Origin: Thermopolyspora flexuosa
Lineage (GTDB): Bacteria; Actinomycetota; Actinomycetes; Streptosporangiales; Streptosporangiaceae
Length of the DNA: 64,000 bases
Assembly (NCBI RefSeq): GCF_006716785.1
Contig: NZ_VFPQ01000001.1
Span: 1,178,001-1,242,000, forward strand
Direction: 5' to 3'
The position numbers and the translations under genes are program-made. Every line of letters begins with the position of its first letter. The first letter of the stretch is position 1. This document shows, piece by piece, positions 2,404 through 48,059 of the stretch. The notes beneath the pieces were generated by a model. It ran no database searches, was not told the origin of the DNA, and saw nothing but the letters and a program-made list of their open reading frames with translations.

Positions 2404-3360
2404 ATGCGCGCGGCGACCGCGCTCGGCCTGCTCGCCGGGGCCGCCGCGGACGCCGTGTTCGCCGACCCGCGCCGCGGCCACCCGGTCGCCCTGTTCGGCC
2501 GGGCCGCGGCCGCGCTCGAGCGCCGCCTGTACGCGGACTCGAAGGCCCGCGGCGCGGCCCACGCCGCGCTGTGCGCCGGCGGCGCGGCCCTGCTCGGCGC
2601 GGCCGCGCAGGCGCTCACCCGGGACCGGCCGTGGGCCCGGGCCGCGGTGACCGCCGCCGCCACCTGGGCGGTGCTCGGCGGCACCAGCCTCGGCCGGGAG
2701 GGCGCCTACCTCGCCGCCGCCCTGGAGCGCAAGGACATCGCCGCGGCCCGGGCCCGCCTGCCCCACCTGTGCGGGCGCGACCCCGGTCGCCTCGACGAGC
2801 CCGAGCTCGCCCGCGCCACGGTCGAGTCGGTCGCGGAGAACACCTCCGACGCGGTGGTCGCCCCGCTGGTGTGGGGCGCGATCGCCGGGGTGCCCGGCCT
2901 GCTCGGCTACCGGGCGATCAACACGCTCGACGCCATGGTCGGCCACCGCTCGCCCCGGTACGCGAACTTCGGCTGGGCGGCGGCCCGGCTCGACGACGCG
3001 GCGAACCTGCTCCCGGCCCGGCTCACCGCCGCGCTCGCCGTGCTCGCCGCGCCCGTGGCCGGGGGCTCGCCGCGGCGGGCGCTCGCCGTACTGCGCCGGG
3101 ACGGGCACCGGCACCCGAGCCCGAACGCGGGCCGGTGCGAGGCCGCGTTCGCCGGCGCGCTCGGTGTCCGGCTCGGCGGCGCCAACGACTACGGCGGCCG
3201 GATCGAGCACCGCCCCCACCTCGGCGACGGCGAGCGCCCGGGCGCCGCCGACATCCGCCGCGCGGTACGGCTCGCCCGCGTCGTCGGCCTCGCCGCGACC
3301 GCCCTCGCCGCGCTCGCCGCGGCGCGGCCCCGGCTCGCCCGCGCAACGAGGCCCGCCTGA
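2404..3360 (+). CDS. cobD: adenosylcobinamide-phosphate synthase CobD/CbiB
   Basis: This membrane enzyme attaches aminopropanol (or its phosphate) to adenosylcobyric acid in the late steps of cobamide synthesis. Family marks are ADPRRGHPVALFGR near the start, SVAENTSDAVVAPL, and the LLGYRAINTLDAMVGHRS region followed by YANFGWAAARLDDAANLLPAR. The length of 318 residues is typical of CobD, with several hydrophobic Ala/Leu-rich helices. The ATG at 2404 was chosen because the family starts just before this point; GTG 2335 would add a basic, non-conserved leader. cobQ, the enzyme acting just before it, begins 42 bases downstream, so the two are probably co-transcribed. No cobalamin riboswitch was recognised upstream. 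Confidence 0.92.
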   Translation: MRAATALGLLAGAAADAVFADPRRGHPVALFGRAAAALERRLYADSKARGAAHAALCAGGAALLGAAAQALTRDRPWARAAVTAAATWAVLGGTSLGREGAYLAAALERKDIAAARARLPHLCGRDPGRLDEPELARATVESVAENTSDAVVAPLVWGAIAGVPGLLGYRAINTLDAMVGHRSPRYANFGWAAARLDDAANLLPARLTAALAVLAAPVAGGSPRRALAVLRRDGHRHPSPNAGRCEAAFAGALGVRLGGANDYGGRIEHRPHLGDGERPGAADIRRAVRLARVVGLAATALAALAAARPRLARATRPA

Positions 3361-43865: not shown

Positions 43866-44167
43866 TCCTCGGCTCATCTCCGTGAGGACGTGGTACTCGC
43901 TGTGCGCGAACCGGGGGGCGTCCGCCGGCGGACGGCGACCGTGCCGGGAGCGCGTCGCCACCGCCGTCTCGGCACGCGGAACGGCACGCTCCCAGGGTAC
44001 GGCCTCACCCCCGGTGGGCCGGCGGACGGGCCACCGGCCCTCCCGGCGTCCACGCGGCCTGCCGTACGGCGTGCCGGGCGCGGTGCCGAGACCGGCGACA
44101 CGCGCGGGACCGGGCCGCCGCCGGGACGGACGGGCCGCCCGGACGCCGGGTGGGGCCTGCGCGGCCG
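43866..44167. other. intergenic region between globin and mscS genes
   Basis: No gene is supported in these 302 bases. The frames present are Arg/Pro/Gly-rich and lack any domain. The promoter of the globin gene (minus strand) should lie in its left part. Confidence 0.4.
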
Positions 44168-45304
44168 TCAGGACGCCGCGGCGAACGGCACGCCCTTCTC
44201 GTCGAGCGCGTGCTTGATGCGCACCCGCAGCTCGCGCGCGACCTCGTTCTGCTTGCCGGGCATGGTCTTGGCGGTCACCCGGAAGAGCATCGCCGAGTCG
44301 GAGATCTGCTCCAGGGCGTACACCTTGGGCTCCTCGACGATCACCAGGTCGCGCATGCCGGGCTCCTCCCACAGCCCGTTCGCGATGGACTTGAGCAGCT
44401 CGCGGACCTCCTCGATGTCGGCGTCGTACGGCACCGGCACGTCGACCAGCGCCCGCGACCAGCCCTGCGACTCGTTGCCCACCCGGCTGATCGTGCCGTT
44501 GCGGATGTACCACACGCGGCCGTCGGCGTCCCGCAGCCGGGTGATGCGCAGCGTCACGGCCTCGACGGTGCCGGTGGCCGGACCGGCGTCGATGATGTCG
44601 CCGACGCCGTACTGGTCCTCCAGCAGCATGAACATGCCGGAGATGAAGTCCTTCACCAGCTCCTGCGCGCCGAAGCCGATCGCGATGCCGAGGATGCCCA
44701 CGCTGGTGAGCAGCGGCGCGAGGTTCATGCCGAAGCGGGCGAGCACCATCAGGAACGCGGTGCCCATGATCACGACGGTGGCGACGTGCCGCAGCACCGA
44801 CCCCATCGTCTCGGCCCGCTGCCGGCGCCGCTCGGTGAGCAGCACCTGGGCGGCGTCCGTCTGCTGGCCGGACCGGGCGCGCAGCTTCTCCGGGAGCACA
44901 CCCTGCGCGGCCTTGCGGGTGATGCGCTCGATCAGGCGGAGCACCAGCTTCCGCAGGACGAACGCGCCCGCCAGGATGAGGACGATCGTGATCAGCCAGG
45001 CGGCGAACGGTGCCCAGCCCTTCGGCAGGATGCCCTCCACCAGCGGGCAGATCACGTCGTTCGATGAGGTGCAGGTGGAGAGCACCGCCTCGGTGAGCGC
45101 CTCCGGGTCCGGAAGCACCAGGTCGGTCGGATCCGGCGTGGAGGTGGCCTCCGGGGTCGGCTCCGGCGTGGGCGCCGGGGTGGCCTCCGCCGTCGGCGCG
45201 GGAGTGCCTTCCGATGTGGGGGCCGGGGTCGCCGGGGCGTCGGACGGGTCCGCGGACGGGTTCGCCTCCGGCGTCGGGGCAGGTGCGAGCGATCGCAGGA
45301 ACAC
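44168..45304 (-). CDS. MscS-type mechanosensitive ion channel
   Basis: This 378-residue protein has an unusual extracytoplasmic-type N-terminus of about 65 residues made of Pro/Thr/Ala/Glu repeats ([20 protein letters not shown]). Three hydrophobic helices follow near residues 98-120, 165-187 and 195-210. The pore-lining helix has [20 protein letters not shown] and the beta domain [20 protein letters not shown]. MscS channels open under membrane tension to release osmolytes. The start is GTG 45304 with GAGG nine bases before. The 3' end is about 300 bases from the globin gene. Confidence 0.9.
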
Positions 45305-45819
45305 TTACGGGATCCTCGGGGATTGGTTCGGTCGGCGGTTGGTCATACCTCGGTCAACCATAGTGATACCGCCGAGCTGCCACCGCCGACCGAACCGGCC
45401 GCCGCGACCTCCGCGCCGTCAAGAGGGGGCGCCGGGCCCGACCGCCGGATCAGGCCCGTATCGCCCCACGCGGCGGCCCGGCCGGTAGGCGCACCCGGAA
45501 ACACCTGCCGGCCGTCCCCTCGCCGGGGTGGGGTCCCGGCGCCGCCCGGCACCGCCGTACCGGCGGCCCGGGCGGAGCTTTACGCCGCGGGTGGAATTTC
45601 GAATCCGAATCTGACTCGGGTGAATCCGAGTATGACTCGGATGTCTGACTCGGTACCGTGTTCGATTCCGGCGAATCAGGAATTGACGTATTGTTCCGAC
45701 TTGACGAGAATTCGCGAAAATGATCCCGGAGCCGGCGCGGCAGGCAACGCCCGGACCCTCCGGCGCGTTCCGCACCGCCGCCGCGCCGACCCCGGGGACG
45801 CCGCGGTGGGCGCGTGCCT
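45305..45819. other. intergenic region with AT-rich repeat patch
   Basis: The gap holds 515 bases. Between about 45585 and 45730 the sequence is strikingly less GC-rich than the surrounding 70-75% GC genome, and it contains 21-bp direct repeats with dyads (listed separately). No gene is supported. It lies upstream of mscS on the minus strand, and its other side is the 3' end of the 90-residue gene. Confidence 0.7.
45601..45654. repeat. 21-bp direct repeats with CCGAGT/ACTCGG dyads
   Basis: GAATCCGAnTnTGACTCGG occurs at 45601-45619 and 45622-45640, 21 bases apart with 18 of 21 matches. A partial third copy (TGACTCGG) is at 45646-45653. CCGAGT-ATG-ACTCGG at 45626-45640 is a perfect dyad, and ACTCGG-N6-CCGAGT at 45614-45631 is another. 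It looks like a binding-site array or a small structured RNA; which is unknown. Confidence 0.8.
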
Positions 45820-45838
45820 CTAGTCGCCCACCGCGGCG
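45799..45838 (-). terminator. hairpin over the end of the 90-residue gene
   Basis: A perfect 14-bp stem (CGCCGCGGTGGGCG at 45799-45812 against 45825-45838) with a 12-base loop spans the stop codon of the minus-strand gene. The terminator stem includes the last codons. Confidence 0.65.
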
Positions 45839-46092
45839 AGCACTCGGGCCACCTTCGTCGCGGCGCCGGCCGGATCGTCCGCCCGGTGCATGCGCTCGCC
45901 CCACGACCACCAGTAGTAATCGGTCGCCGCCTGCGGACGGCAGGTGACGTTCTCGGTGAGACTGGTCGCCTTCGGATTGATCACACGCACGAAGGCGCGG
46001 CCCGACGACGTGCGCACCACGCGGGCGAGCAGGCCGCGTGCGTCCAGTTCCGACACCAAGCGCTCCAGGTGACCGAGGTGGTCCTCGCGCAC
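45820..46092 (-). CDS. small conserved protein, divergent from XRE regulator
   Basis: The 90-residue protein begins with a helical LGHLERLVSELDARGLLARVV, then a beta-like RAFVRVINPKATSLTENVTC and a Trp/Tyr-rich DYYWWSWGERMHRADD. It resembles small hypothetical proteins found beside XRE/TPR regulators in actinomycetes, but no function is known. GTG 46092 is chosen because GAGGAGGAC lies about eight bases upstream; longer frames to 46401 run through the intergenic region. Divergent from the XRE gene with a 323-base gap. Confidence 0.75.
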   Translation of the reverse strand: MREDHLGHLERLVSELDARGLLARVVRTSSGRAFVRVINPKATSLTENVTCRPQAATDYYWWSWGERMHRADDPAGAATKVARVLAAVGD

Positions 46093-46415
46093 CGTATGTC
46101 CTCCTCGTACGGCGGGCCTCTTCGGTCCCGCGCCTGCTTTTCCGGTCGGCTCAAGATGACCGACATCGTCAAATGGCGCAACGGACCTTTGAGGCGGCCG
46201 TGGATGGGGGATACCCCAATCAGGGTTATAGAAGCGCTCCGAAGGAGGACGATCCTTAGCCGAATTCCGCAAGACTCGTTCCCCAGCAGACCTCGTCTGG
46301 TCCATTATTCTCTGTAGGCGTAGCGCAACCCGCCGGTAACAGTGAGTCAGGGGGCGGTCGACCGGGCGGGGACTCGGCAGGGCGGTCACGTGCCGCCCCA
46401 AGGAGAAGGGCTGTC
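46093..46415. other. divergent promoter region
   Basis: The 323-base gap lies between the small gene and the XRE regulator, and presumably carries both promoters. Sequences such as GGGATACCCCAATCAGGG and GGTTATAGAAG are AT-richer than the surroundings. No operator could be assigned. Confidence 0.4.
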
Positions 46416-48059
46416 ATGGTCGTGCCAGGCATGGTCGGAGATGACGGCCGAACCTCGAACGGCAGGGCGACGGAGAACCGGATCGTGACCGGGAGACACA
46501 GGGAGACCGAACTCGCCCGGCGGAGCCGGGCTCGAGGGTTGGCCGCGGGGCGGAGCCTTCCCCAGATCGCGGACGAGATCTTCGAATTATGCGGCCCGCA
46601 GTTCGGCACGACGCGGATCAAGGCCCACCGCCTGGCCCACGGCATCGCGCTCGCCGACGTGATCGAGCAGGTACGTGCGCTGTTCGAGCGCGACGGCAAG
46701 CCCGTCCCCGGGATCGGCGAGACATTGCTGTCGGCGTACGAGAGCGGCCTCAAGCGGCCGGGCCCGGAGTACCTCCACTACCTGTGCACGGTCTACCGGG
46801 TCGAGCCGGCCGCCCTCGGTTACGAGGGGCCGTGCATCTGCGGAAACGGACACCGTGCCCCCGGTGCGGGCCGGAGCGACGCGGCGCAGGAGCCCACCCC
46901 CGAGCTGGTGCCCAGGCAGCGTGAGCCGCGGACGTGGCCAACCGGCAGTGATGCCCCCGGCGACGGGGGCGAGGAGGACGAGAACGTGCTACGCAGGACG
47001 TTGTTGCAGCTCCTCGCGGTGACGGGAGCCGGCGCGGTGATCGAGCCGGAGACCCACAGCCGGGTCTTCGGCGCCGTCGAGAACATCCGCAGGCGGCTGG
47101 ACGAGACCCTGGTGTCGGGCACCGTGTCTGCGGCCATGCTCGACCAGTGGGAGGAGGCCACCAAGGGGTTCGGCCGCCAGTACATGAAGACCCCTCCGCT
47201 GCAGTTGCTCTGCGACGTTCTGCTGGAGCTCAGCTCGGTGCGCAGGGCGATGGCGCACCGCCAGCCGGTGGACCTGCAGCGGCGGCTGTGCCAGATGACG
47301 GCCCAGCTATCCGGCCTGAGCGGGATGATCATGCTCAACCTCGGCGACCACCGGCTCGCGCGCTCGTTCTTCCGCACCGCGCGCACCGCCGCCGACGAGA
47401 CCGAGGACCGCGCGCTGCGCGCCTGGGTGATCGCCCGCGAGTCCCTGGTCCCGCTCTACTACGGCGACCCGAAGGAGGCGCTCAACCTCGCCAGGCAGAG
47501 CCGTGCCCTCGCCGGCCAGACCCCCTGCCCGGCGCAGGCGATGGCGCCGATCGTGGAGGCGCGGGCGATCGCGATGCAGAGCGGCTCGACCGGCCGCAAG
47601 GAGGCGGTCGACCAGGCCAAGCGCGCGCTGTCCCGGGCCCGCGCGGCCTTCACCCAGATGAGCAGCGACGACCAGCAGGACCTCGCGTTCGGCTACACCG
47701 AGCGCCAGCTCTACTTCCACGAGGGCGACGCGCTGGTACGGCTGGGCGAGACGATCGAGGCCGACTACATCCTCCAGAAGGCCCTCTCCCAGTACGGGCC
47801 GTCGGATTGGCTCGACCCCACCCTCATCCGGTTCGACCGGGCCCGCTGCAAGCTGATCGAGGGTGAGATCGAGGAGGCCGCGCGGATGGCCCTGGAGACC
47901 TGGAAGGAACTCGAGGACGCCTACCGCACCGACATCGTGGTGCGCCGGGCGAACGACCTCATCCGGCAGGCCGAGAAGGCGGCGAGCGGGAGCCGTATCC
48001 CCGTGCTGGAGGAGCTCAAGGACGCCGTCAAGGCCCGGGCGACGAGGGCGGAGGCATGA
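46416..48059 (+). CDS. XRE-family regulator with helical-repeat (TPR-like) C-terminus; TTA codon
   Basis: This 547-residue protein has an N-terminal helix-turn-helix region around GRSLPQIADEIFELCGPQFG and the XRE segment GIGETLLSAYESGLKRPGPEYLHYLC (split here as VPGIGETLLSAYESG). A Cys pair (GPCICG) follows. The C-terminal 370 residues are alpha-helical and TPR-like (SFFRTARTAADETEDRALRA, KEALNLARQSRALAG). Such proteins sense peptides or control development. A rare TTA Leu codon occurs at residue 58 (46587-46589). ATG 46416 follows AAGGAGAAGGG. The GNAT gene overlaps its stop (ATGA). Confidence 0.82.
   Translation: MVVPGMVGDDGRTSNGRATENRIVTGRHRETELARRSRARGLAAGRSLPQIADEIFELCGPQFGTTRIKAHRLAHGIALADVIEQVRALFERDGKPVPGIGETLLSAYESGLKRPGPEYLHYLCTVYRVEPAALGYEGPCICGNGHRAPGAGRSDAAQEPTPELVPRQREPRTWPTGSDAPGDGGEEDENVLRRTLLQLLAVTGAGAVIEPETHSRVFGAVENIRRRLDETLVSGTVSAAMLDQWEEATKGFGRQYMKTPPLQLLCDVLLELSSVRRAMAHRQPVDLQRRLCQMTAQLSGLSGMIMLNLGDHRLARSFFRTARTAADETEDRALRAWVIARESLVPLYYGDPKEALNLARQSRALAGQTPCPAQAMAPIVEARAIAMQSGSTGRKEAVDQAKRALSRARAAFTQMSSDDQQDLAFGYTERQLYFHEGDALVRLGETIEADYILQKALSQYGPSDWLDPTLIRFDRARCKLIEGEIEEAARMALETWKELEDAYRTDIVVRRANDLIRQAEKAASGSRIPVLEELKDAVKARATRAEA

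Follow-up and report, generated by a model that had tools for sequence, protein, structure and literature searches.

We report two hairpins, designated A and B, upstream of the mechanosensitive channel gene mscS of Thermopolyspora flexuosa, for which a role as conserved structured RNA is well supported: in both, compensatory base changes exceed those in shuffled and slid controls. Between them lies a conspicuous AT-rich patch with 21-bp repeats, which had been singled out in an earlier note. As judged from sequence comparison, this patch is probably a lineage-specific, fast-evolving linker between two structured-RNA modules, and not conserved for its own sequence. The eye-catching repeats would then be under the weakest constraint in this region, and conservation would reside in the flanking hairpins. 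The following features of the window, i.e. the whole 64-kb stretch of DNA that was analysed, are referred to below.

44168–45304, minus strand: mscS, small-conductance mechanosensitive channel with GTG start (Pfam PF00924, PF21082 and PF21088 above cut-off)
45472–45519, minus strand: hairpin B with the loop UUCCGGGU at 45493–45500 (covariation; model R2, 50.9 bits in the window)
45592–45724, minus strand: AT-rich variable patch, lowest GC of the window, between hairpin A and the conserved stretch toward hairpin B
45601–45621, strand not assigned: 21-bp repeat copy 1 with the imperfect dyad CCGAAT/ACTCGG
45622–45642, strand not assigned: 21-bp repeat copy 2, holding the perfect dyad at 45624–45642
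45644–45653, strand not assigned: partial third repeat copy with the core TCTGACTCGG (10/10 identical)
45725–45796, minus strand: hairpin A with the 5′ bulge GGUGCGGA at 45769–45776 (covariation; model R1, 45.5 bits in the window)
45799–45838, minus strand: 14-bp perfect hairpin straddling the small-gene stop codon (helix search in the loci)
45820–46092, minus strand: upstream small gene of about 90 aa, its GTG preceded by GAGGAGG (start set by eye)

Relatives were collected by a small-protein scan of named genomes, from which the best 80 of 116 were kept. Apart from the MAG locus L053, the genera in the titles of these 80 loci are presumably all Streptosporangiaceae. The small gene, searched as 45820–46113, matched no Pfam and no NCBIfam family. 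A gene matching the NsdA family (TPR regulator) was present in 80/80 loci; in the window this is the divergent gene at 46416–48059 on the other side of the small gene, which scored above the cut-off of the NCBIfam NsdA-family regulatory protein subfamily. Downstream and on the same strand, mscS followed in 79 of the 80 loci, the exception (L075) being a contig end. At the small-gene stop a helix of 9 bp or more, counting G-U pairs, was found in 59/80 loci, compared with 18/80 when the 3′ segments were shuffled.

Hairpin A consists of a 17-bp lower stem, the GGUGCGGA bulge on its 5′ side and an upper stem of variable length. Its base pairs were counted in 22 rows (the window and 21 loci) chosen by eye among the 79 sequences that contain A; near-duplicates and the majority of the copies with a long apical loop were omitted. 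Within these rows 92.9% of the cells were paired and 16 of 23 pairs had changed on both sides; none of 500 shuffles scored as high on any of five measures, and the slid controls were far lower. The bulge was present in all 45 rows of alignment A5, a constancy that for GGTGCGG is partly by construction because the 78 loci with A, and likewise the A5 rows, had first been picked by the pattern GGTGCGG[AG]. Outside A5, locus L090 reads GGTGCGGG at this position, and in the two loci lacking the pattern model R1 found no A. A pairing of the bulge with CCCUCCGCGGCC, the third conserved loop on the downstream side, was considered by eye and rejected, since this loop is missing from several loci, among them the window. 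Insertions of very roughly 150–200 nt were seen between the small-gene stop and A in L124 (about 2850–3055) and L130 (about 2770–2940); these loci come from two genera (Microbispora rosea, Microtetraspora malaysiensis) and share pieces such as GCATCGCAAGGCGGAG, possibly a mobile repeat.

Hairpin B is built of an 11-bp stem and the loop UUCCGGGU. Pair counts were based on 30 of the 81 rows (the window and 29 loci), taken mainly from 71 with pattern-set ends. Here 91.2% of the cells were paired, with changes on both sides at 9 of the 11 pairs; again 0/500 shuffles reached the observed value on any of the five measures, and slid versions scored lower. The UCCGGGU of the loop was invariant in the 30/30 rows of alignment A9; L076 and L093 lack the first U. 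By eye, relatives show a third hairpin between B and the promoter motif (e.g. L070, about 3120–3180; L104, about 3063–3125); many of them have a loop like CCCUCCGCGGCCC, and the genus of the window differs in sequence there. The RNAalifold fold of alignment A8 past hairpin B was not trusted.

The slid controls matter here because related rows inflate shuffle tests; they are themselves biased toward a structure that was drawn from the rows under test. G-U cells outnumbered A-C cells 45:5 in the stems of A (22 rows) and 22:9 in those of B (28 rows of A8, window excluded). This excess speaks for an RNA from the minus strand, on which mscS lies too; with 9 A-C cells against 22 G-U, the strand is less certain for B.

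Both hairpins recurred across the loci, among which the rows used for model building are included. Model R2 found B once in each of the 81 sources (the window and 80/80 loci); this count was used in place of a pattern search, which found B in 78/80 (not in L053 and L088). Of 128 matches to model R1, those on the gene strand placed A in the window and 78/80 loci, L076 and L111 being without it; some of these were weak, the weakest having E 0.0012. The remaining 49 matches were the same hairpins on the mirror strand. In a scan of 60 relatives (37 of the family, the own genome included), A and B occurred in the same 15, which were also the 15 that strongly matched the whole interval. Weak extra matches came from G058 for A and, for B, from G041 and from another site in G010; these scans used stricter filters that can lose weak matches. 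Among 246 genomes drawn from the class, strong matches were obtained in 5 of the 22 listed from the family, and weak ones in 11 of other families. The latter R1 matches (11/246 genomes, E 7.5e-5 to 0.009) were probably due to chance, as five loci checked from these 11 genomes (L138–L142) had neither mscS nor the small gene.

The distances within the interval divide it in two. From the small-gene stop to A the median was 61 nt (IQR 60–63, range 24–286; 78 loci), and a T(G/T)TGAC-type motif, sought 40–140 nt after B, followed B in 78/80 loci at a median of 69 nt (IQR 68–70, range 48–72). The distance between A and B varied (median 93 nt, IQR 69–118, range 39–466; 78 loci). Considering the near-constant outer distances, hairpin A appears to be tied to the small gene at its 3′ end, and hairpin B to the upstream region of mscS. 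The A-B spacers of the other loci differ in sequence and length and have a median GC of 72%. The spacer of the window is 205 nt long with 60.5% GC, the patch making up its AT-rich portion; AT-rich spacers also occur in L090 (47%), L091 (52%) and the A-less locus L076.

By eye, the T(G/T)TGAC-type motif resembles a −35 consensus and may be the −35 element of mscS. Hairpin B may thus end just before the mscS transcript start, and it need not be part of the mscS mRNA because the likely mscS promoter is located downstream of it. A riboswitch would lie in the 5′ leader of the gene it regulates, together with an expression platform; with ~69 nt between B and the motif that may be the −35 element, B may be situated upstream of the mscS transcript. 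An inverted repeat, GGTTCGGTCGGC...GCCGACCGAACC, surrounds the presumed mscS promoter in the window (45305–45400); as a strict pattern it was found in 23/80 loci with gaps of 24–48 nt.

Turning to the patch itself, its low GC content was borne out: 45585–45730 has 51.4% GC against 73.5% for the 64-kb window and is the lowest stretch in it, since only 17 of 63,854 windows of 146 nt were as low, all inside 45574–45737. It lies about 280–290 bp upstream of the mscS GTG (45304). The two 21-bp repeats plus partial third copy that the earlier note had described were likewise recovered. Copies 1 and 2 are identical at 18/21 positions (86%), a best 21-mer repeat reached by 0/300 dinucleotide shuffles of the patch. 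The perfect CCGAGT/ACTCGG dyads were slightly overstated in the plural, as there is one perfect dyad with 8-bp arms, ATCCGAGT-ATG-ACTCGGAT at 45624–45642, and the dyad of repeat 1 is imperfect. Dyads alone are weak evidence, because an 8-bp arm was also reached in 12/300 shuffles of the patch. GANTC sites numbered 8 in 45585–45730 compared with 2.1 in shuffles (0/300 as high), a count inflated in part by the tandem repeat copies; the average across the window is 0.25 per 146 nt. The patch of the sister genome has 4 such sites, a number reached by 21/200 shuffles.

The sister comparison was made with G001 (locus L053), the sole other genome of the genus compared, and both duplication and drift, as discussed here, derive from this one comparison. 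Identities refer to aligned columns, with gap columns counted apart. The patch was 61.2% identical (63/103) with 31 gap columns. By contrast with the patch, identity was 94.4% for hairpin A (68/72, 4 gap columns), 98.1% for hairpin B over 45470–45523 (52/53, 1 gap column), 92.5% for the remainder of the A-B spacer (62/67), 90.8% for the end of the small gene (128/141) and 89.6% on the promoter side (147/164). Between the sisters, both hairpins were hence better conserved than the 141 nt of coding sequence next to them. Conservation outside the patch is not universal, because 45797–45819 beside the small-gene stop is just 77.3% identical (17/22, 1 gap). A pair of repeats, GATCAATTTCGC / GATCATTTTCGC, 92 nt apart, brackets the sister's patch (L053 2883–2894 and 2975–2986); by eye, the window retains just the copy beside hairpin A.

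The earlier note had held that random drift in relatives would speak against a function of the patch, and drift is largely what the 61.2% identity and the 31 gap columns show. Yet the two patches can still be aligned, with a global alignment score of 38.5 against 12.5 for the best of 300 shuffles and a common core around TCGAACACGGTACCGAG, and at 53.6% the sister patch is still GC-poor in spite of its sequence turnover. It is not obvious that plain neutral drift, in a genome of 73% GC, would keep it so. The repeat unit CCGAGTCAGATTCGGATTC matches one site of the G001 patch at 16/19 bases, a quality seen in 0/500 shuffles, while the remaining two units of the window match over just 7 and 8 bases (equalled in 57 and 11 of 500 shuffles). 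The sister patch thus contains one clear, diverged unit versus two and a part in the window, and it has no comparable repeat of its own, its best 21-mer match of 12 being reached by 181/200 shuffles. The 21-bp repeats are therefore most likely the product of a tandem duplication, the sister having the unit just once. With two genomes compared, either a duplication in the lineage of the window or a loss in the other would account for the difference.

The patch could also have a fold of its own, given that its predicted fold on the minus strand is more stable than that of shuffles (z −3.2 and −3.5; plus strand z −1.9). This may stem from the duplicated dyads, because the sister patch folds no better than its shuffles (z −0.3 and −0.7). 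As coding sequence the patch was rejected: the two ORFs through it have no Pfam match, the sister comparison has 31 gap columns, and by eye the frames of the two are unlike.

Tandem units with dyads at a spacing of 21 bp, about two helical turns, are what would be expected of an operator array controlling mscS or the small gene. A search for the repeat elsewhere in the genome, as proposed in the earlier note, found no further site for the 19-nt pattern of the unit with as many as 3 mismatches allowed. The sister has one clear, diverged unit, and inspection by eye did not show the units in the intervals of a set of 13 loci and a set of 14 loci outside the genus. The operator array suggested in the earlier note was therefore not borne out, and we regard it as improbable. 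A mobile repeat (MITE/REP) was likewise set aside, since the patch had a full-length match just at its own locus and other genome matches were to short pieces.

A related question is whether base composition rather than sequence is under selection, with the patch as a binding platform for a nucleoid-associated protein, Lsr2 or Gbn. Lsr2 binds AT-rich sequences (PMC6584129), and the patch is the lowest-GC stretch of the window and keeps a low GC in the sister while the sequence turns over. Gbn recognises GATC(A/T)T (PMC9239103), and one GATCAT lies at the patch edge and another in the G001 patch; the single GATCAT means little, however, because the 64-kb window has 54 GATC(A/T)T sites. Moreover, the patch with its 51% GC is not strongly AT-rich, and comparable low-GC patches are rare at this locus: the lowest 100-nt window was at or below 52% GC in just 4/80 loci (L090, L091, L076 and the sister L053), at a median of 67.5%. 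Altogether we consider such a platform unlikely, if somewhat less so than the operator array.

Least probable of all, in our judgement, is a promoter within the patch, e.g. the plus-strand TTGACG-17-GAGAAT at 45683–45711, which would drive an antisense RNA over hairpin A. It was the one sigma-70-like match in 45200–46500, where 50 shuffles gave a mean of 0.0. The scan is a simple consensus match, no such match was found in the sister locus, and the covariation favours the opposite strand.

Returning to the patch as a linker, we infer a transcript that starts at or before the small gene and runs through hairpin A, the linker and hairpin B. Through their conserved bulge and loop, A and B would bind protein or RNA, or serve in stabilisation or termination; the mode we would prefer is a 3′UTR or sRNA whose hairpins bind protein or confer stability. 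The role of the linker would be limited to holding both hairpins apart, and since it has just this to do, it would tolerate AT-rich sequence and tandem duplication. The transcribed leader or small RNA considered in the earlier note is thus supported in part: the region holds conserved RNA-like structure, but the structures flank the patch and are not its repeats. More tentatively, A and B might together form one undescribed Streptosporangiaceae RNA, a regulatory 3′UTR or sRNA through which the small gene next to the NsdA-family regulator is coupled with the mechanosensitive channel, and in which the linker tunes the distance between the GGUGCGGA bulge and the UUCCGGGU loop. By eye, bulge and loop could even pair through CGGA/UCCG. 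The pair constitutes a concrete and testable candidate RNA family, with alignments and models, in a group including antibiotic producers, and adjoins the gene for a pressure-release channel of the osmotic-shock type.

Among known systems, the patch is reminiscent of Lsr2 and Gbn sites of Streptomyces in being a local AT-rich island with GATCAT at its edge. It differs from them in that its sequence is not conserved and few comparable islands exist at this locus in relatives; the likeness is one of composition and of a single GATCAT. The GC-rich hairpin straddling the small-gene stop, followed by hairpin A, recalls intrinsic terminators; unlike in these, no terminator-like site with a T-run was found in 45200–46500, and hairpin A has a conserved bulge, which is not a known feature of terminators.

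Against Rfam 15, window positions 44000–47500 gave two matches and nine of the 80 loci one match, all far below the gathering score. Hairpins A and B are apparently undescribed, as our searches of open-licence papers gave no prior description of them. The study PMC8269224 counted reads over annotated genes, and the word mechanosensitive is absent from the passages searched; neither mscS nor mechanosensitive occurred in a word search of the main texts of three reports on candidate structured RNAs from comparative genomics (PMC2864571, PMC6429828, PMC8632094). From the candidates in these reports A and B differ in having no credible Rfam match and in strong matches confined to one family in the genomes searched, whereas they resemble them in their covarying stems around conserved unpaired stretches and in a fixed gene context, usually at one place per genome.
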